Shown piece by piece: positions 392 to 19,834 of a stretch of 23,897 nt of DNA; positions within the stretch are counted from its first letter, which is position 1, and each line of letters begins with the position of its first letter. The notes beneath the pieces were generated by a model. The model saw only the letters and a program-made list of their open reading frames with translations, ran no database searches and was not told the DNA's origin. The position numbers were made by a program, and so were the translations under genes. This stretch comes from a virus. Location: positions 1 through 23,897 of the IMG/VR virus record IMGVR_UViG_3300037493_002653; one strand, written 5' to 3'.

Positions 392-607
392 TTAGAGATT
401 GTCATAGACAGAAAACCAAAACCATTTATCAGGAAAATCACAAGGTTCACTACAGTATTTACAGTTTGGACACGTGATTTCTTCTGCATTGATTTTGTGT
501 AGCAGCGTGAATCCGCAATTACCGCAGTTTACCATGTGGACATCTGCCAGTTCGTTTATTGCTTTTACTAAGCATATCTGTTCGCTTATCAATAAGTTTG
601 TTTCCAT
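392..607 (-). CDS. Zinc-ribbon mini-protein, 71 aa
   Basis: The protein carries a CGNC pair near residue 29 and a CPNC pair near residue 47, in the form C-x2-C-x14-C-x2-C. This is the classic four-cysteine zinc ribbon; two further cysteines follow (KYCSEPC). Such ribbons bind nucleic acid or proteins of the transcription or replication machinery. The frame is open further upstream to 730, but that extension would overlap the separate small gene at 667-828. The ATG at 607 follows an A-rich leader like the other genes, so I chose it. The N-terminal part (METNLLISEQICLVKAINEL) looks helical. Zinc binding is well supported; the partner is unknown. Confidence 0.7.
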   Translation of the reverse strand: METNLLISEQICLVKAINELADVHMVNCGNCGFTLLHKINAEEITCPNCKYCSEPCDFPDKWFWFSVYDNL

Positions 608-666
608 ATTATGTTTTTGCCTAGGCTTATTGTCTTTGCCTGTTTGCACACAAAAATAGGGAGAGA

Positions 667-828
667 CTACTTGCGCATCTTGCATAGTGCGGCGGTTTCT
701 GGACGCACGTTCTGTGCATTCTTGAGCCATGCGGCTAGTGCAGTGCTATTCTTACGCGGAGACATCATCAGTGTTTGAATATGACGAGATGGACCGTCCA
801 TTGGATATTTATTTGGTTGTTTTCTCAT
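667..828 (-). CDS. Hypothetical basic small protein, 53 aa
   Basis: This frame begins with ATG at 828 and ends with TAG at 667. It encodes a basic 53-residue protein with a proline- and arginine-containing N-terminus (MRKQPNKYPMDGPSRH) and a helical C-terminal half (NSTALAAWLKNAQNVRPETA). It fills what would otherwise be a gap of over 300 bases between 607 and 926. If it is real, it also fixes the start of the zinc-ribbon gene downstream. I do not recognise the family. The basic charge would suit nucleic-acid contact, but that is only an inference. Confidence 0.5.
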   Translation of the reverse strand: MRKQPNKYPMDGPSRHIQTLMMSPRKNSTALAAWLKNAQNVRPETAALCKMRK

Positions 829-916: not shown

Positions 917-930
917 TTTAGTTGGCTAAA
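917..930. promoter_or_regulatory. Dyad TTTAG-CCAA-CTAAA (minus strand) over a stop codon
   Basis: Read on the minus strand this dyad contains the TAG stop of the gene at 926-1183 as bases 3-5. It differs at one base from the copy at 6385-6398, where the stop codon lies in the same register. Confidence 0.4.
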
Positions 931-1183
931 ATTGAAATTGACTTACATCATTTTCCCCAAGGAACTTACGAAGCAATTCTGTGTCTTCCGGCTTACTTGC
1001 GATGCGTAGACCTATTGATTCACCGTAGCATATTGCGCGGGAGCCATTAACAGTGCTCCAAAATCCAGCTGACACAATCATCTCATTAAGAGCTTTTGCT
1101 ATTTCTTTCATTTTCACGTGAGGAATTGCCTCAGTGAATAAGATGAACCCACTGTATTCTAGCCTGACGTATTTCTTTTCCAT
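926..1183 (-). CDS. Hypothetical protein, 85 aa
   Basis: A small soluble protein with a beta strand-like start (KYVRLEYSGFILF), a helix (MKEIAKALNEMIVSAG) and a C-terminal charged helix (PEDTELLRKFLG), suggesting one compact alpha/beta domain. It follows the SymE-like gene by 7 bases and is probably co-transcribed with it, so a partner or antidote role for the toxin is conceivable, though nothing in the sequence shows it. Its TAG stop lies inside the recurrent dyad TTTAG-CCAA-CTAAA (917-930). The family is not recognised. Confidence 0.75.
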   Translation of the reverse strand: MEKKYVRLEYSGFILFTEAIPHVKMKEIAKALNEMIVSAGFWSTVNGSRAICYGESIGLRIASKPEDTELLRKFLGENDVSQFQF

Positions 1184-1190
1184 AGCATTA

Positions 1191-1343
1191 TTAAGCTGGT
1201 TTTATCAATAACCCATCTTTGGTTAAAGTGATTGTGGTTTTAGTGCCTACCGAAAAGCCTGCTGCTTCGAGCCATTTCCCACGCAATCTTAGAAATGGCT
1301 TTTTATTTACGCATTCTATTACTTTCGAGGTTCTCTTTTTCAT
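1191..1343 (-). CDS. SymE-like toxin domain protein, 50 aa
   Basis: The frame starts with ATG at 1343 inside the end of the upstream gene (41-base overlap, other frame) and stops with TAA at 1191. Residues 16-50 read PFLRLRGKWLEAAGFSVGTK and continue into a beta-rich end (TTITLTKDGLLIKPA). This matches the pattern I know for the SymE family: L-x-G-KWL-x-x-AGF-x-x-G-x-x-(hydrophobic)-x-(hydrophobic), then a short GxLII-type strand. In Escherichia coli SymE is an SOS-induced toxin with an AbrB-like fold that condenses the nucleoid and lowers RNA levels; its translation is blocked by an antisense RNA. This copy is little more than the core domain. The family match is strong by eye; whether it is toxic in the phage is unknown. 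Confidence 0.75.
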   Translation of the reverse strand: MKKRTSKVIECVNKKPFLRLRGKWLEAAGFSVGTKTTITLTKDGLLIKPA

Positions 1344-1542
1344 GCTTTTGTTTTAGTAGTTTTATTCCTAAACGGTGATTGATTAATGGAGATTTGAAAG
1401 GAATCGGCGGTGGACTTACCATTTTGTGCGTTACTTCAATATCTTTTGCTGCTTTGGCAAGACAGAACGCACAGCCTACTACTAGGCATACTATTGCGCT
1501 GACTGATAGGATTGCAATTAATTCGTTGTGTGTTAGTGACAT
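1303..1542 (-). CDS. Single-span membrane protein, 79 aa
   Basis: Residues 8-30 form a hydrophobic, cysteine-containing segment (LIAILSVSAIVCLVVGCAF). A positively charged region follows that contains a proline cluster (SPPPIPFKSP) and a basic C-terminus rich in K, E and R. The topology is probably N-out with the C-terminus in the cytoplasm. The motif AFCLAKAA recurs as AFCLTRAA in the 33-residue protein at 9-110. The gene overlaps its upstream neighbour (1533-1787) by 10 bases and the SymE-like gene by 41 bases, implying a tightly coupled operon. No holin or spanin family is recognisable; the role is unknown. Confidence 0.65.
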   Translation of the reverse strand: MSLTHNELIAILSVSAIVCLVVGCAFCLAKAAKDIEVTHKMVSPPPIPFKSPLINHRLGIKLLKQKHEKENLESNRMRK

Positions 1543-1787
1543 GAGTATTGTGGTGGTAAGGATGAGAATTTGGATGGGTCGTCAACGTCTTTCATTGCGT
1601 CGGTTAATGCTTCACCAATGCTACGTCCGTAGCCAATTGGATCGTTATGCAGATTGTCGTAAATTTCCCAATGGCAGTCAAGTCCACCAATACCGTCTGG
1701 AATGCACGTTTTAATGCACATATGGCCGTTTTCATTCAACCAATCCAGCATGTTGTCACTAGTGATTATTCTGTCTGTATTGCTCAT
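1533..1787 (-). CDS. Hypothetical protein, 84 aa
   Basis: A small acidic soluble protein with the centre LDCHWEIYDNLHNDPIGYGR followed by a helix (SIGEALTDAMKDV). Proteins of this style, a WxIYD-type strand then a short EAL-x-DAM helix, are common among uncharacterised phage early proteins, but I cannot name the family. The start codon is immediately preceded on the minus strand by CACAGGCAAACA, and a second CAGGCAAAC lies 19 bases further upstream. The same 9-mer recurs as a pair in the 4541-5103 spacer, so this gene may be regulated through those sites. It is the first gene after the terminator at 1826-1859 and so probably starts a new transcription unit. Confidence 0.7.
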   Translation of the reverse strand: MSNTDRIITSDNMLDWLNENGHMCIKTCIPDGIGGLDCHWEIYDNLHNDPIGYGRSIGEALTDAMKDVDDPSKFSSLPPQYSCH

Positions 1788-1788
1788 T

Positions 1789-1816
1789 GTTTGCCTGTGG
1801 TTTGTGAGTTTGCCTG
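1789..1816. repeat. Paired GTTTGCCTG direct repeats upstream of 1533-1787 gene
   Basis: The plus-strand 9-mer GTTTGCCTG occurs at 1789-1797 and 1808-1816, 19 bases apart (about two helical turns), directly before the start codon of the minus-strand gene at 1787. The same word occurs twice more at 4938 and 4983. A DNA-binding site is the likeliest reading, but a translation-related leader element is also possible. Confidence 0.45.
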
Positions 1817-1825
1817 AACGTACAT

Positions 1826-1859
1826 AAAAAAAGGCAGAAGGGTTTTACCCCTCCTGCCT
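1826..1859 (-). terminator. Rho-independent terminator
   Basis: Read on the minus strand, AGGCAGGAGGG pairs with CCCTTCTGCCT over 11 positions (one G-U) around a six-base loop and is followed at once by seven T residues. This ends the transcript of the gene at 1913-2329. A second, shorter GC hairpin lies just before it (plus-strand GCGAGGGG with CCCCCCGC near 1885-1907) and may strengthen it. Confidence 0.92.
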
Positions 1860-1912: not shown

Positions 1913-2329
1913 TTAGAAGGCTTCGTCTGCCTCTTCGCCGCTTACAGCATCAGTTTCGTCGTCGGCAAGGATGCCTACGGCTTTCTGATACTCTGGCGTA
2001 AGTAACATTGCCTCATACGCCTTTTGATTGACGATTGTGAGGGTAGTTACTTCCTTCGCGGGTTGACTGCCCATTGAGCGGCCTCCTCCAGCAAGGACTT
2101 TATCCCACGCACGGAGCACGGTCACTTGACCGATTTCAGCTGCCATGTCGAGTGGCAAGCCTGTGGTGAGCAATTTGCCACCTTCAGCCTTGTGGTCAAG
2201 CATTTTGGCTTTGGATAGCGCGGTGAACCCGAACACGACTTCACATCCTGCGATTGCGGCAGGGATGACGGCGTTTAATGTGCGGAGTTCCTCTTCGTTT
2301 CTAACGTGTAACAGTTTTTGTTCTGACAT
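1913..2329 (-). CDS. Hypothetical protein with acidic C-terminal tail, 138 aa
   Basis: The first 90 residues look like an alpha/beta domain (hydrophobic stretch NAVIPAAIAGCEVVFGF, then a lysine-bearing loop). After a glycine-rich turn (LAGGGRSMGSQ) comes a strand (KEVTTLTIVNQKAYEAMLL) and a strongly acidic tail ending in phenylalanine (DETDAVSGEEADEAF). Acidic tails with a terminal aromatic are known from phage single-stranded-DNA-binding proteins such as T7 gp2.5, and from bacterial SSB, but no OB-fold signature is visible, so this is only a hint. It lies downstream of the 540-residue gene on the same strand and has its own strong terminator, so it is probably well expressed. Confidence 0.75.
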   Translation of the reverse strand: MSEQKLLHVRNEEELRTLNAVIPAAIAGCEVVFGFTALSKAKMLDHKAEGGKLLTTGLPLDMAAEIGQVTVLRAWDKVLAGGGRSMGSQPAKEVTTLTIVNQKAYEAMLLTPEYQKAVGILADDETDAVSGEEADEAF

Positions 2330-2385: not shown

Positions 2386-4008
2386 TCAACCCAAAGCGTA
2401 GCTTGCCTTTCTGTTGGCAACCTTGACTGCTTTGCGTAGAGAACCTGTAAGTTCTAGTGCTTTGAGCACATTATCGAGCCGCGAACCGTTTTTAGGCTGG
2501 CTAAAACGAGGGGTGGGTGCTTGTGGCATTTGGTTACGCTGACCATTTGCGTTGACAGCCACGCTGCCAGCTTTTCCTATCCATCTTGCGGTTTTATCCA
2601 TCGGGAGGCTAGAAACGCTCGTTATGGGGCGTTGTAGCTCATATACGAGTGATGGCTCAAGATACGTGGACTCTGGTGCGGGATTTTTTGCTGGAAGCAC
2701 AATGCGTCCATACACTGTTTCTTTTCCAAAAGGAAAGTATGTTGTAGGGATGATTGTTCCACGCATGGTGAAGAAGTCTTGCTGTGTGAGCTTTGCATCG
2801 CAATGAGCCATAGCATCATCTAGAGCTTCGGCAGCTTCTTCATGCATCATATTGGCTACAAACCAAGCCTTTTTGGTGATTTCGTAGTCGCTAGCAAGTG
2901 GTATTGATAGGCGATAGCGCCCTTCAAGCTCTTTTGCGGTGCGAGTAATCTTTTGGTCAACTAATTCTAAGTAGGTTTCATCAACCACTGGAGATCCTTC
3001 CATGAATGCAATCAAGTCGCCCATTTCAGTAGCGTAGTCCATAGCAATTAACATTGAGGGGGTGAATGTCTTAGGATTGAGCTTTTCTTCAAGGTCTTCC
3101 ATGGCGAATTGCGCTTGGAATGATTCATCAAACTCGAAACTGTTTGACTCTATGCATTCGTCGCATTCACCATCTGAGATCGAACGGCTCACTAAGGCAT
3201 ATTCAGCCTTGGAGATAGACGAACCTTCCATTGTTCCATCGTTTTCAATGGCATTGCCACATTCATCGACATGATACTTTGAAATCGTCTTCTGAGGGTC
3301 GCGCATTGCGGTGATAAGGACAACCCACTTACCATTGACCAAGACAGTCGCGGAAGTAGGAATTAGGTCTTTATCTCCTGCCAACTCTTTAACGATGCGT
3401 GAGTAGTCTCCAGCGATGCGCCTTCCAAGACGAGAGCAAACTTGTTGCATTGCGGTGGTAGGATTGGAATGAAGCATAGGCTTGTAGCCATTCCATTCTT
3501 CACCCAAGTCAACGCGAATGTCTCCATGTTTGAACACATAACGCGCCGGAGTGTGTGAGATTGTGCCATTGATTGCACCGGATTCGGTGGCTGCCTTCAT
3601 GTATGGAGGCCAAAGAGTGAACTGTGCGTCTACCCATTTACCATCACGCTTGCGGGAGGGCATAATGTCCTGATCGCTGCGCTTGTTGATTGCCTTAATC
3701 CACTTCTGTAAGCCCTGGTATTCAGAGATCACACCAAAGCAGATGGCAATGCTTGTATTCTCGTCATACGACTCTTCAGAGAAGCGCTCGCGTAACTGTT
3801 GCTTCACTTTGCGGGGAACTCCCCCAAAGCGCGTGGCGCACCATTTCTGAGCCCATACGGGCATAACATCTTCATGGATTAGAGCAGCATACTCTTCTCC
3901 AGTGATGTATTCCCCTTTGAGGGGCGTATTGTTGAGCTTCCCATTGTAGGCAAGCCTTATCGGTTGTGTTGTTGTAACGTGTCGTTGCATATGTGTATGG
4001 AAATTCAT
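2386..4008 (-). CDS. Large unknown phage protein, 540 aa
   Basis: This is the largest gene of the minus-strand block. It starts at ATG 4008 (an internal ATG six codons in is an alternative). The protein is mixed alpha/beta with no transmembrane segment. It has a basic, proline/glutamine-rich linker near residues 485-510 (NQMPQAPTPRFSQPKNGS) and a basic helical C-terminus (RLDNVLKALELTGSLRKAVK). A central acidic, cysteine-containing stretch (ISDGECDECIESNSFEFDES) is unusual. No polymerase, helicase, nuclease or protease motif can be seen. A linker plus basic tail would fit a DNA-associated or packaged virion protein, but this is a guess. A 14-bp sequence (CCCAAAGCGTAGCT) occurs at both ends of the gene. 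Confidence 0.8.
   Translation of the reverse strand: MNFHTHMQRHVTTTQPIRLAYNGKLNNTPLKGEYITGEEYAALIHEDVMPVWAQKWCATRFGGVPRKVKQQLRERFSEESYDENTSIAICFGVISEYQGLQKWIKAINKRSDQDIMPSRKRDGKWVDAQFTLWPPYMKAATESGAINGTISHTPARYVFKHGDIRVDLGEEWNGYKPMLHSNPTTAMQQVCSRLGRRIAGDYSRIVKELAGDKDLIPTSATVLVNGKWVVLITAMRDPQKTISKYHVDECGNAIENDGTMEGSSISKAEYALVSRSISDGECDECIESNSFEFDESFQAQFAMEDLEEKLNPKTFTPSMLIAMDYATEMGDLIAFMEGSPVVDETYLELVDQKITRTAKELEGRYRLSIPLASDYEITKKAWFVANMMHEEAAEALDDAMAHCDAKLTQQDFFTMRGTIIPTTYFPFGKETVYGRIVLPAKNPAPESTYLEPSLVYELQRPITSVSSLPMDKTARWIGKAGSVAVNANGQRNQMPQAPTPRFSQPKNGSRLDNVLKALELTGSLRKAVKVANRKASYALG
2390..2403. repeat. 14-bp direct repeat copy 1 (CCCAAAGCGTAGCT)
   Basis: Identical to 4021-4034. The two copies flank the 540-residue gene: this copy covers its last codons, the other lies 12 bases before its start codon. 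The pair could be shared control elements for the two minus-strand genes that begin downstream of each copy, or the border of a gene cassette. Confidence 0.5.
2490..2506. promoter_or_regulatory. Dyad TTTTAG-CCAGC-CTAAAA inside the 540-aa gene
   Basis: Minus-strand copy of the recurrent dyad, here in coding sequence (codons for FSQPK) about 100 bases before the stop codon of the gene. Confidence 0.3.
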
Positions 4009-4102: not shown

Positions 4103-4540
4103 ATGAGCAGAGCATATCCTACTGAAACTTGGAAAGACATTGAAACTCGTTATTGCGCTGGAGATGACAGTCTTATCGACTTAGCCAAGGAATACAACAT
4201 CCCCTACAACACCGTTCGGATGCGTAGCAAAAACAAACGGTGGGTGAGCAAGAAGCGAGTAGTTCATGCAATTACCCGAACAGACCTACTTCCCACCGAT
4301 CCTGCTAAAGCTTTAGCCGATAAATGGAAAGAGAGAAATGAGCAATTGCGGGAGTCCACTTACTTCGGTGCTAAACGCGCATTAGACACTTTCTTCCTCC
4401 TTAATCCAGTCCCTCAAGACTTCGCGGAGGCTGAGAAAGCCTTTAAGATACTAGAGAAAGTAATCAACCCTGAAGTCGCGGGGGGAGATTCTCTCAACAT
4501 CGCCCTATTAACTAACAACTTCATTCCTACCCTCCTTTAG
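4103..4540 (+). CDS. Probable terminase small subunit, 145 aa
   Basis: The N-terminal third has a helix-turn-helix of the type found in phage small terminases: an acidic helix (DDSLIDLAKEYNI), the turn PYNTV and a basic recognition helix (RMRSKNKRWVSKK). This part would bind the packaging site on phage DNA. A charged helical middle (ADKWKERNEQLRESTYFGAK) fits the oligomerisation core, and the end (LEKVINPEV) resembles the stretch that precedes the large-subunit-binding tail. The frame is open to 4052, but the ATG at 4103 just after the promoter is the better start. It is the only plus-strand gene in the left 8.5 kb and lies 4 kb from the large subunit, which is unusual. A transcription regulator is the main alternative. 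Confidence 0.65.
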   Translation: MSRAYPTETWKDIETRYCAGDDSLIDLAKEYNIPYNTVRMRSKNKRWVSKKRVVHAITRTDLLPTDPAKALADKWKERNEQLRESTYFGAKRALDTFFLLNPVPQDFAEAEKAFKILEKVINPEVAGGDSLNIALLTNNFIPTLL

Positions 4541-4933
4541 CCAATACCAAAATACTCACTAGCTATTAACAAACCCATTCACCCTCTTATTTCATTCTTC
4601 TCTGTTCACTCCGTTATACCTCATTTCTGAGGTCATACGTAAGTAAATAAAGTTAAAATAAAGCTTTACAGCATAAGGGAAACTGCTATAGTTGGTCGCC
4701 ATGCATCAAGTAGCTGAGATGATGTCCTCCCCGCAGATAATCTTCGGACAAGACGACAAATAAACTTATAGATGATGTATGTATAGACTGGCTAAAGCGG
4801 AAACTGTAATGGTTTGCCGCTATTTTGGTCTATGTTACTATGGCTATAGTATAAACTATGGATGTAGTAATTGATTGTTTGGTATGTCCCCAACGGTCAG
4901 TAACAACCAGCAGTTGAGCTAGTTGGTGGTAGG

Positions 4934-5103: not shown

Positions 5104-5571
5104 TTAATCTCCCATACGGAATCCTCTAGGACAATCAGTGTGTTCTGCTGCGATTCTCGCGAGGGAGTAGCGTTCTCTCGTCCACCAAGAGGCAAGAACA
5201 AGACCACTAAAGGTTTCTAGTAGACTATCTGCAACCTCAATTATTTGTGTGCAATCAATAGCAGTGGTTGTTATCTCATTATTAGACTTGCGATACACTG
5301 TCTCTGGTTTGCTAATAATATCCGCTTTCATGTATGGTTGCCCATCTGGTTTTTCTTGATAAACAGCTTTGACAACAAGCGAGTAGCCTTCGCGTAACGA
5401 TATTTTCCAAATTAGGCCTGTATACTCATTGTCATAGTCGTAATCCATTTCAGGGATTGCTAAGTATTCGGTGTGATATTTGCCATATTGGACTAGTCCC
5501 ATAGCCCAAGAAGCAACCATGGTGTCGAATTCAATTTCTTTCTTCATTTCTTGATTTGATGTTATTTTCAT
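5104..5571 (-). CDS. Hypothetical protein, 155 aa
   Basis: A soluble acidic protein. The N-terminal half carries aromatic beta-like segments (YGKYHTEYLAIPEMDYDYDN, then LIWKISLREGYSLVVKAVY). A helix follows (IIEVADSLLETFSGLVLASW) and a basic, cysteine-containing end (ARIAAEHTDCPRGFRMGD). The acidic Y/D stretch around residues 39-50 is unusual. No family is recognised. It is the last gene of its operon before the 4541-5103 spacer, and its leader (AATACACAAAT before ATG) again has no Shine-Dalgarno site. A host-directed early function is possible, but nothing in the sequence proves it. Confidence 0.7.
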   Translation of the reverse strand: MKITSNQEMKKEIEFDTMVASWAMGLVQYGKYHTEYLAIPEMDYDYDNEYTGLIWKISLREGYSLVVKAVYQEKPDGQPYMKADIISKPETVYRKSNNEITTTAIDCTQIIEVADSLLETFSGLVLASWWTRERYSLARIAAEHTDCPRGFRMGD

Positions 5572-7691: not shown

Positions 7692-7891
7692 GGTCGTATG
7701 CGCACTTGCTGCGGCTTGTTCGGTTATACCGCCGAATCGGGGTGCGTAACTCTACACATCGAAGGTGAGAGAAACCGCTAAAGGACCATGACCGATCCAT
7801 TCTTACAGGTTCATTACGCCTGTATGCTTGCGTCTGGGCTTGGAACCAGAACTGCCGCATTACACCGCCGAAGCGGTGTCCTCTGCGAGGG
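7692..7891. other. Spacer with a TTCG-loop hairpin
   Basis: On the minus strand ACACCGC-TTCG-GCGGTGT (7862-7879) is a seven-base perfect stem with the extra-stable UUCG tetraloop, 13 bases after the stop of the gene at 7892. TACAGG-TTCATTACG-CCTGTA (7804-7824) is a second stem. No T-run follows either, so a terminator role is possible but not certain. Confidence 0.55.
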
Positions 7892-16144: not shown

Positions 16145-17464
16145 ATGCCAAAAGTAAATTTATCTGAAAACATGTCAAAACTCCTGAAAAGCCTTTCAGG
16201 TGGTATTCTTGACTTTTTTAATGAAAGCAAAATTCAAGAAGCACCTATTGGAGGCATTCGCCAAGTGTGCATTGCTGACTATAAAAAAGATTGGTCATTA
16301 GGATCAAATTACTATCGTGGTCAATCAAATTCCGAAGTCATTAGGCTTACTGATATGCAGTTTTACGCACCAACAACCACTGATGACGAAACAAAAGGTT
16401 TCGCTGCGGGAAGTTGGTGGGTTCTGGAGAACGGCAATATGTATCAATGCTATGACGCTACTGCAAGCGCAGCCGTATGGGATATTATTTCGACATCTGT
16501 CCCAGACCCAACTACAGTAAGTGGAGGCGGGGAATTTGACTTTAATTTTTCTGGAACAATTCCCACTAATTGGAAGGTCAGCAATACTAATATTACAAAC
16601 TTGCATATCGGTAGCACTGTTACGACTATTGGCGATTACGCATTTTTAAGTTGTTCCAACCTAGTTGGAGGTCTTGTTATTCCAAATAATGTGAAATCTA
16701 TCAACGCAGGTGCATTTAGCAACTGCATTGGCTTAACTTCACTCGACCTTGGCACATCGGTTACTAGCATTGGTGATTCAGCATTTGCTTATTGCAGTGT
16801 TATGTCAGGTGATCTAATCATTCCTAATTCAGTTACAAGTATTGCAAACTCGGCGTTCAACACTTGCACTAGTTTTATGGGTACGCTCAGTATTGGCACA
16901 TCGGTTACTAGTATTGGCGATACAGCGTTTTATATATGCAATTTTACAAACAACTTAATTATACCTGATTTAGTTACACATATTGGTTTTGAGGCGTTTT
17001 ACCAATGTGGGTTTACGGGAACCTTAACTATTGGAGCCACTGTTGACACTATTTCTGCTAACGCATTTTATGGATGCCAATTCACAGGCGACTTAATCAT
17101 TCCAGATTCAGTTACAAGTATTGGTGCTTCTGCATTTTATGGATGTGGATTTAATGATAATTTGACTATTGGGAATTATGTAGGTTTGACTATTGGTAAC
17201 AACGCATTTGAAGATTGCGCCAATCTTGACGGAGTCCTAAACATAGGAAGCGGCGTTACAAGTATTGGTGATTATGCGTTTGGTGGATTAACTTTACTAA
17301 CTGCCATTAACTGCTACGCCGTAGTTGCACCCACGCTTGGAACTAGCGTATTCAATAACACGATGCTCGCCGACATTCACGTTCCAACTAGCTCTTATGC
17401 TAGTTATAATGCCACCAACTCGAATGGCACCTATGGAGGATTAACAATAGTCGCCGATTTATAA
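16145..17464 (+). CDS. Receptor-binding fibre with BspA-type leucine-rich repeats, 439 aa
   Basis: Residues 1-130 form a unique N-terminal part (with the tryptophan/glycine stretch GFAAGSWWVLENGNMYQCYD) that probably attaches to the virion. From about residue 145 onward come roughly ten repeats of about 23 residues of the BspA/Treponema type (LRR_5), with units such as VTSIGDSAFAYCSVMSGDLI followed by IPNSV. These build a curved solenoid used by bacteria to bind surfaces and proteins. The last 60 residues (ending in TYGGLTIVADL) form the cap typical of such repeats. In a phage this would be a host-recognition or adhesion fibre. Repeats differ at the exposed positions, as expected for binding. 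Confidence 0.85.
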   Translation: MPKVNLSENMSKLLKSLSGGILDFFNESKIQEAPIGGIRQVCIADYKKDWSLGSNYYRGQSNSEVIRLTDMQFYAPTTTDDETKGFAAGSWWVLENGNMYQCYDATASAAVWDIISTSVPDPTTVSGGGEFDFNFSGTIPTNWKVSNTNITNLHIGSTVTTIGDYAFLSCSNLVGGLVIPNNVKSINAGAFSNCIGLTSLDLGTSVTSIGDSAFAYCSVMSGDLIIPNSVTSIANSAFNTCTSFMGTLSIGTSVTSIGDTAFYICNFTNNLIIPDLVTHIGFEAFYQCGFTGTLTIGATVDTISANAFYGCQFTGDLIIPDSVTSIGASAFYGCGFNDNLTIGNYVGLTIGNNAFEDCANLDGVLNIGSGVTSIGDYAFGGLTLLTAINCYAVVAPTLGTSVFNNTMLADIHVPTSSYASYNATNSNGTYGGLTIVADL

Positions 17465-17972: not shown

Positions 17973-18332
17973 ATGAGTGAATATGCAGCTACATACAATT
18001 TGCAGGGAATCATTCGTGATGATAGCTGGAGAGGTATTCCAGTTATCCAAATTATTGTAAATGCAAGTCCTCCAGCAGTTCCTGTTTCAAGTGCTGAAAT
18101 GATCTTTAAAAAGAAAAGTAAGCAAAGCACTATTGATTTAATTCTTACAAGTTCTGGAGCTTCTCCAACAATTATTATTGAAGATGATGAAACATGGGAA
18201 ATGAGTATTCCTAGAATTATAGATTTCCCTTTGTCTACTGGAGTATGGCATTACGTCTTCAAGACTATTGATGCTGATGGATTCAAGAGATCATATTTTG
18301 GTGGAACAATAACATTAACTGATGAGCCATGA
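17973..18332 (+). CDS. Baseplate or fibre-adaptor beta-sandwich protein, 119 aa
   Basis: The sequence is a run of beta strands: YNLQGIIRDDSWRGIPVIQI, an SAEMIFKKKSK strand, WEMSIPRIIDFPLSTGVWHY and a final KRSYFGGTITLTDEP. This order, with a D-x-W/F-x-G start, a basic MxxKxK strand, a WxYx(I/V) strand and a GTITLT end, is the pattern of small N-terminal domains that link fibres to the baseplate in many phages (BppU_N-like). Its stop overlaps the start of the collagen-stalk fibre by four bases (ATGA), which supports joint assembly with it. Confidence 0.65.
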   Translation: MSEYAATYNLQGIIRDDSWRGIPVIQIIVNASPPAVPVSSAEMIFKKKSKQSTIDLILTSSGASPTIIIEDDETWEMSIPRIIDFPLSTGVWHYVFKTIDADGFKRSYFGGTITLTDEP

Positions 18333-19834
18333 GTGATGAAGTAATAGTAACAATAACAGAAATAGCAGAACAAGCTATTGTTGAGCTTACAGAAGTATCT
18401 GAAAGTGTTGTTGTTGTTATACAAGAGGCTGCAAATGGAGAGCCTGGACCAATTGGTCCTACTGGAGCGAACGGAACAAACGGAACAAACGGAACAAATG
18501 GCACAAATGGCACGAACGGCACAAACGGCACTAATGGCACTAATGGCGGGTCAGTCAGCGCATGGAATTATAAAGCCAAGACCAATGCAACCAGCGGCTA
18601 CCCGACCAACGGCCACCTACTTTGGAATAACGCCACACAGACAAGCGCAACTAGCATACTTGTCTCACACCTAACCGATGACGACACCGACATTGAGTTG
18701 TTCCTTTCCTTTTTCGTCATCAACCAAAAAATCTTTATACAGAATCGGGATGACTCAAGCCAAAATCAAGTCTGGCAAATAACTGGAACGCCAACGGTGA
18801 CGGGGGCGAATACTAGCACAGCATACTACACTTTTCCCGTGACCTTGGTATCATCGGCGGGTGCGGCATTTACAAACAACCATTCTATTTTATTCGGTCA
18901 AATCGTAGTTGCTACAAACTCAGTGACAAGCGCAACGACCAGCAATGGGACTTGTGATCTTGATATCGAATCTTTGACGCTGAATACATGCAATAGCGAT
19001 TTTATATTTTTAGCTGACGGAGCTTATGACATCGGAACAGGAAGTAATTATGTAAGGACGGCGTATATAAACACAGTTTTTTCTGGAGCGTTGACAGTTG
19101 GATACAACTCAAGTGGTTCATATTTGGGTCAAATTATAATTTACTCAGACACAGCGGGTTCCAGCACGACTCTCAATCCAACAACTGGCGGGAGTGGTTT
19201 ACTAACGCTACCATCTGGCACTGGCACTCTCGCGCTAACGAGCGACATCACAGTCACTCCTACTAACACTGTCACCCTCACCAACAAAACGCTGACCAGT
19301 CCAGCGATCAACTCTGCGACCATTGGCACGGCGGCGACATTTAACGCGACGACCTACACGTTCGGGGCGGGGGCGGCGGCTGCACTAAACACCGCACTTG
19401 GAACAACTCGAGTTATGCGGACCACGCTTGCAACTCGGACAAGTGGGACAATGACCGTAGATGACACGCTTGTTTTGCCAGTTGTAAGCGGCGTAACTTA
19501 TCGGGTGCGCGTTCACTCTCTAACGAAAAACAGCACGGCGACTGTCGGAATGGTTTTACGCATAGACCACCCAGGCATCACGGCAAGCGGAAGCGATACC
19601 GTCGGACACCTGATGAACGGCGGCGGTAATGCTGGAATCACACCAAGCACGTCAACGTCTCTGACAAATAGCGTTAACCAAAACGGGCAGAATTTATCGA
19701 CAATAACAGAGGTAATTTTAACGCCAAGCGCATCGGGCGACGTAAAAGTAATGTGGGCGGCGCGCGTGCCGGCGGGTGTCGAAACCGCAGGATTAAACAT
19801 CGGAAGCTATTTGGAAGTCATCAAAATATCATAA
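18329..19834 (+). CDS. Tail fibre with collagen-like stalk, 501 aa
   Basis: The N-terminus (MSDEVIVTITEIAEQAIVEL) is beta-rich and probably binds the virion. Residues 37-74 are Gly-X-Y triplets: GEP, GPI, GPT, GAN and eight GTN, then GG. Such collagen-like stretches make a trimeric rod in phage fibres. The remaining 420 residues are threonine/serine/glycine-rich, with typical trimeric-fibre segments (LPSGTGTLALTSDI and TLTNKTLTSPAINSATIG), and end in a compact beta tip domain (SASGDVKVMWAARVPAG onward). No enzymatic motif is visible. It follows the small adaptor gene and is coupled to it by ATGA overlap. Confidence 0.85.
   Translation: MSDEVIVTITEIAEQAIVELTEVSESVVVVIQEAANGEPGPIGPTGANGTNGTNGTNGTNGTNGTNGTNGTNGGSVSAWNYKAKTNATSGYPTNGHLLWNNATQTSATSILVSHLTDDDTDIELFLSFFVINQKIFIQNRDDSSQNQVWQITGTPTVTGANTSTAYYTFPVTLVSSAGAAFTNNHSILFGQIVVATNSVTSATTSNGTCDLDIESLTLNTCNSDFIFLADGAYDIGTGSNYVRTAYINTVFSGALTVGYNSSGSYLGQIIIYSDTAGSSTTLNPTTGGSGLLTLPSGTGTLALTSDITVTPTNTVTLTNKTLTSPAINSATIGTAATFNATTYTFGAGAAAALNTALGTTRVMRTTLATRTSGTMTVDDTLVLPVVSGVTYRVRVHSLTKNSTATVGMVLRIDHPGITASGSDTVGHLMNGGGNAGITPSTSTSLTNSVNQNGQNLSTITEVILTPSASGDVKVMWAARVPAGVETAGLNIGSYLEVIKIS
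18473..18544 (+). repeat. Eight tandem 9-bp repeats coding Gly-Thr-Asn
   Basis: The first units are identical (GGAACAAAC) and later ones vary in third positions (GGCACAAAT, GGCACTAAT). Slippage would change stalk length in frame. The antisense frame over this tract is an artefact. Confidence 0.9.

Follow-up and report, generated by a model that had tools for sequence, protein, structure and literature searches.

The SymE family comprises proteins predicted to bind DNA through a MazE/AbrB-type fold. One of its members is the 113-aa protein of Escherichia coli (yjiW; NF010128/PF08845), whose antisense RNA, SymR, lies over the 5' end of symE and is transcribed from a promoter inside the coding sequence (PMC1891008). 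As Thompson et al. (2022) are summarised in PMC11894785, this protein binds DNA and compacts the nucleoid, no RNase activity having been found, and its C-terminal helices are predicted to help form a tetramer (PMC11894785). Bacterial SymE operons have been reported with HTH, RHH or YefM regulators (PMC1891008). It is also already known that isolated Flavobacterium phages carry SymE genes annotated in RefSeq: the Duneviridae phages 6H, 1H, 2A, 23T and laban6-1 encode stand-alone SymE proteins of 61-68 aa within a block of small genes and with no recognisable antitoxin, as is the case for the gene analysed here, which lies in an environmental virus record of 23,897 bases (the window, i.e. the whole stretch of DNA under analysis).

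The translation of this gene is MKKRTSKVIECVNKKPFLRLRGKWLEAAGFSVGTKTTITLTKDGLLIKPA. A sequence-only reading had proposed a SymE-like toxin at this place, and its coordinates and the recognition of a SymE core were correct: the minus-strand ORF contains LRLRGKWLEAAGFSVGTK, after which two strands are predicted (residues 36-40 and 45-49). Profile searches agreed on the family, residues 12-49 aligning with positions 17-54 of the 54 of PF08845 (SymE_toxin) at 41.8 bits (E = 1.1e-10; curated cut-off, 29 bits), a score far beyond chance and the sole match to this profile in the record. The E. coli equivalog model NF010128 returned 25.2 bits, below its cut-off of 132, and was covered over the core only (model positions 36-68 of 113); the phage protein stops four residues after the last of these positions and, therefore, the C-terminal domain of SymE has no counterpart here. 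Both proteins share the core PFLRLRGKWL..AGF..G plus two strands, but that of the phage has 50 instead of 113 residues, is devoid of the long N-terminal tail and the C-terminal helices, has no SymR and is encoded inside an operon-like gene block. A sequence search of solved structures gave no relevant match, and PADLOC reported nothing for symE and its two neighbours. The ORF is a real, minimal and very short SymE-family gene whose family membership is secure, unlike its membership of a type I toxin-antitoxin system. The idea of a stripped-down copy is not borne out as an oddity, since phages and bacteria commonly encode short SymE proteins that stand alone.

Close homologues were found in two viral contigs of one metagenome (loci L002 and L003, 62% and 56% identical, respectively), and a wider search retrieved the Duneviridae proteins (34-42% identical; RefSeq label 'SymE family type I addiction module toxin') together with proteins from other environmental viral contigs and from bacteria, including Xanthomonas relatives, Chitinophaga and Odoribacter. 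Residues P16, G22, W24 and G33 are invariant in the 25 aligned sequences, L20, A28, G29 and F30 nearly so. Pairwise comparison of the window, L002 and L003 over 48-50 codons revealed 31-33 differences at third positions versus 10-15 at first and second positions, with dN of 0.33-0.41 and dS saturated or above 2; the frame is a constrained gene under purifying selection. On the bacterial side, one contig of a Thermoanaerobaculia MAG (JAUIJL010000005.1) bears four symE copies spaced by about 7 kb (L040, L041, L043 and L044), which suggests a repeated cassette.

The AbrB-like fold anticipated from the sequence ranked first, though weakly, in structure comparisons. The AlphaFold2 monomer models (pLDDT 79) had their best PDB matches in MazE, the MazE-DNA complex, AbrB, SpoVT and VapB, MazE being the closest, with Foldseek E-values that were all non-significant (best 0.16) and with the N-terminal strands not formed. 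Such an incomplete-looking monomer is expected because the fold is normally a swapped dimer, which a monomer model cannot display. All 12 phage relatives matched PF08845 and seven of them also PF04014 (MazE_antitoxin; best E 2.3e-4); the window protein gave no significant PF04014 match and, together with its SymE-type GKW..AGF signature, this sets it apart from the DNA-binding domains of MazE, AbrB and VapB. Low in the fold-match list are C68 (pSSVx) and C56 (pSSVi), small stand-alone proteins of archaeal virus-plasmid elements; these matches are very weak (E 2.6 to 6.0, TM about 0.3) and the proteins archaeal, and they may set a precedent for mobile elements that encode minimal DNA-binding proteins.

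The surroundings of symE were compared in related phages (Table 1). The window terminase has a single distant relative (24%) among sequenced phages and shares 75-77% identity with the terminases of 16 viral loci; searching viral contigs with the 540-aa neighbour returned nothing, because patterns built from one sequence are too specific, and it was the terminase alignment that worked. The region past the 138-aa gene is covered in four lineages, namely the window, L003, L007 and the group L014-L016, whose three loci have matching values at every gene and count as one. Each of the four shows, after the 138-aa gene, a terminator hairpin with z-scores between -3.4 and -4.8 and then the TTTTTTTATG...CAGGCAAA leader, which has the general pattern TTTTTTT(A/G)TG...CAGGCAAA. 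An Rfam hit to the L20 leader at 1820-1900, obtained at a relaxed threshold (E 0.086; 22.5 bits against 58.7), falls in this terminator region and was taken as chance. CAGGCAAA occurs in addition in pairs about 45 bases apart, always near the same place.

The genes behind the element differ among the lineages. The window has the 84-aa ORF there and L003 has symE; L007 carries yet another gene, and L014 the p112-p81 pair. Thus, symE comes directly after the 138-aa gene in L003 and after two intervening ORFs in the window; it is missing from this place in L007 and L014-L016, whose full contigs (61.0, 28.8, 18.7 and 61.0 kb) were negative for PF08845. In L003 the gene next in line after symE shares 49% identity with the second slot gene of L007, and symE thus sits in another gene's place in L003. 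Between the window and L014, identity reaches 78-82% for the p112 and p81 proteins but only 40-46% for the flanking 138-aa and 540-aa proteins, a contrast that fits an exchange of cassettes. The p112-p81 genes are preceded by a copy of the element in both phages, and the similarity to L014 and the leader both indicate that the 112-aa ORF probably starts at its internal ATG. The simplest reading of this arrangement is that about 1.2 kb containing p84, p79, symE, p85 and p53 was inserted at the element relative to the order in L014. Conservation of the frame in homologous phages, on which the original proposal was staked, therefore gave a divided answer, symE being kept at the same place in L003 and missing from L007 and L014-L016, which makes it real but dispensable: it is optional cargo of a small-gene block, present in the window phage and in L003.

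Table 1. Positions of the features discussed, in the window and in related phage loci
Feature	Locus	Position	Strand	Remarks
112-aa ORF (p112)	window	392-730	-	internal ATG at 607
Second, partly degenerate element copy	window	635..680	-	hairpin 3' half plus CAGGCAAA leader; matches element before p112-p81 in L014
85-aa ORF	window	926..1183	-	directly downstream of symE; weak PHROG match phrog_3988 (function unknown), E = 3.4e-4
symE-like gene	window	1191..1343	-	50 aa, single MazE/AbrB-like domain, PF08845
79-aa ORF	window	1303..1542	-	upstream of symE; one hydrophobic N-terminal stretch; 41-base overlap with symE
84-aa ORF	window	1533..1787	-	first gene past terminator-leader element; no significant family match
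Terminator hairpin and leader TTTTTTATGTACGTTCAGGCAAA	window	1790..1859	-	heads variable gene slot; kept in L003, L007, L014
138-aa gene	window	1913..2329	-	conserved, function unknown; marks left side of slot
540-aa gene	window	2386..4008	-	conserved, function unknown; upstream within same block
Terminator-leader element	L003	9946-9997
Terminator-leader element	L007	~5431-5480
Terminator-leader element	L014	~4524-4575
CAGGCAAA pair	window	4946, 4991
CAGGCAAA pair	L003	6884, 6929
CAGGCAAA pair	L007	8550, 8595
CAGGCAAA pair	L014	7973, 8017
Ribozyme	window	7834-7887	-	twister-P5
Ribozyme	L003	4677-4730		twister-P5
Ribozyme	L007	9463-9516		twister-P5
Ribozyme	L014, L015, L016	9453-9523		pistol
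Ribozyme	L006, L013	70-140		pistol
Ribozymes	L018	3167-4022		two twisters and one pistol in a row
Ribozyme	L021	3136-3659		twister-P5
BspA-type leucine-rich repeat protein (PF13306)	window	16145-17464		adjoins structural genes
Collagen-like repeat protein	window	18329-19834		adjoins structural genes

Two further features deserve mention. In most of these phages a self-cleaving ribozyme is found on the strand opposite to the terminase gene, some 460-960 bases upstream of it; besides the cases listed in Table 1, it is of the twister-P5 type in L008, L011 and L020. At this one syntenic site, two ribozyme classes that are unrelated to each other replace one another. The BspA-type and collagen-like proteins of the window are perhaps receptor-binding or tail parts.

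In most of the phage relatives symE overlaps or adjoins the gene upstream. In L002 (9006-11274) symE lies between genes for a MoxR-type AAA ATPase and a DUF2201 metallopeptidase/VWA protein, with a 4-base overlap with each; in L024 and L027 an AAA ATPase gene follows symE, again with a 4-base overlap, and in the Duneviridae symE overlaps a gene of 73-76 aa by 11-17 bases. The overlap with the upstream gene amounts to 4 bases in L002, 1 in L024, 11 in L026 and 17 in L028-L034, and a 2-base gap is found in L027. Overlap or abutment of this kind fits ordinary operon expression, and the common theme is tight operon embedding with changing partners, unlike an addiction pair.

Taken together with the E. 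coli protein, we consider it reasonably likely that the product of this gene is an optional phage protein that binds DNA as a dimer and, without a dedicated antitoxin, acts on the nucleoid or on transcription. The protein would consist of a single MazE/AbrB-like domain and nothing else, two copies of which may dimerise into a small barrel binding double-stranded DNA, as the predicted fold and the analogy with E. coli SymE suggest. It would be expressed as part of the leftward small-gene operon of the phage, gene order pointing to early expression, and would influence either transcription, be it of the phage or of the host, or the packing of the nucleoid; its target might be, at a guess, the host nucleoid or phage promoters. 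The gene itself would be gained and lost as optional cargo at the terminator-leader slot. Sequence does not distinguish a regulator from a free-standing growth inhibitor that lacks an antitoxin of its own.

Variable blocks of small phage genes often house host-acting genes, and symE sits in one. Since PMC11894785 also describes compaction of the nucleoid upon overproduction of E. coli SymE, the phage protein could be imagined as a takeover toxin condensing the host nucleoid and thereby shutting down host transcription or replication. We regard this as rather unlikely, given that the C-terminal helices, which are predicted to contribute to the tetramer of SymE (PMC11894785), have no equivalent in a protein spanning model positions 36-68 of 113 and that the fixed operon place of symE in the Duneviridae fits a regulator at least as well.

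Very unlikely, in our opinion, is a two-gene toxin-antitoxin or addiction module formed with the 85-aa neighbour, as had been suggested, or with the 79-aa ORF upstream. The tight spacing (7 bases) and the overlap (41 bases, 1303-1343) are exactly as first described, and the regulators reported in bacterial SymE operons (PMC1891008) offer a precedent, but these neighbours are not conserved beside symE wherever examined and match no antitoxin or regulator family. The 85-aa ORF, with weak phage matches in jumbo phages only (best E 7e-3), has no homologue in the fetched loci, in the scan of viral contigs or beside any other symE examined, and was rejected as a partner. The 79-aa ORF gave no family match and no homologue in any fetched locus; symE does overlap another frame, as the notion of a gene hidden in overlapping frames implied, but that frame is no more than a putative gene. 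Pfam searches of the adjacent ORFs of the window returned no HTH, RHH or YefM match, and neither did any of the 13 neighbourhood proteins scanned, although such searches could overlook very divergent members; none of the 10 neighbourhood proteins around five other phage symE genes matched an antitoxin or regulator family. A role of symE as half of a toxin-antitoxin pair is thus not supported, there being no conserved partner.

The family name and the E. coli precedent (PMC1891008) would call for a type I module, in which a SymR-like antisense RNA from the plus strand restrains the toxin, and L003 does show one promoter-like site antisense to symE. This site (9/12, against 0.6 expected by chance) is not above chance and was not found in the window, whose plus strand has no promoter-like site at 1191-1390; the 200 bases upstream are not conserved between the window, L002 and L003, and the leader preceding symE in L003 is common to unrelated genes in L007 and L014. 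Rfam gave no SymR match, which is a weak negative because the known SymR family is enterobacterial. The antisense control originally envisaged has left no sign in any of these searches, and we judge it highly improbable. The least probable explanation is that of a decoy or anti-toxin, in which the MazE-like fold would neutralise, in infected cells, a MazF-like toxin of the host. No fold match is closer than MazE, and seven relatives weakly match its family, but MazE blocks MazF via its C-terminal tail, and the phage protein does not extend beyond the DNA-binding domain.

Our comparison of L003, L007 and L014 exposes a terminator-leader slot loaded with differing small genes, which is a useful site in which to search for host-acting phage proteins. 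The evidence as a whole further argues that 'SymE family type I addiction module toxin', as a label on such phage genes, transfers a merely presumed function, because these genes show no antisense region, no conserved partner, a DNA-binding core only, operon embedding and dispensability between sister phages. It is tempting to speculate, if only tentatively and with doubt prevailing, that minimal SymE proteins are widespread phage DNA-binding regulators or nucleoid proteins, with an operon position that is fixed in Flavobacterium phages but swappable in this environmental clade. If this were true, the database label would be mistaken, and the toxin of E. coli would represent an extended version derived later.
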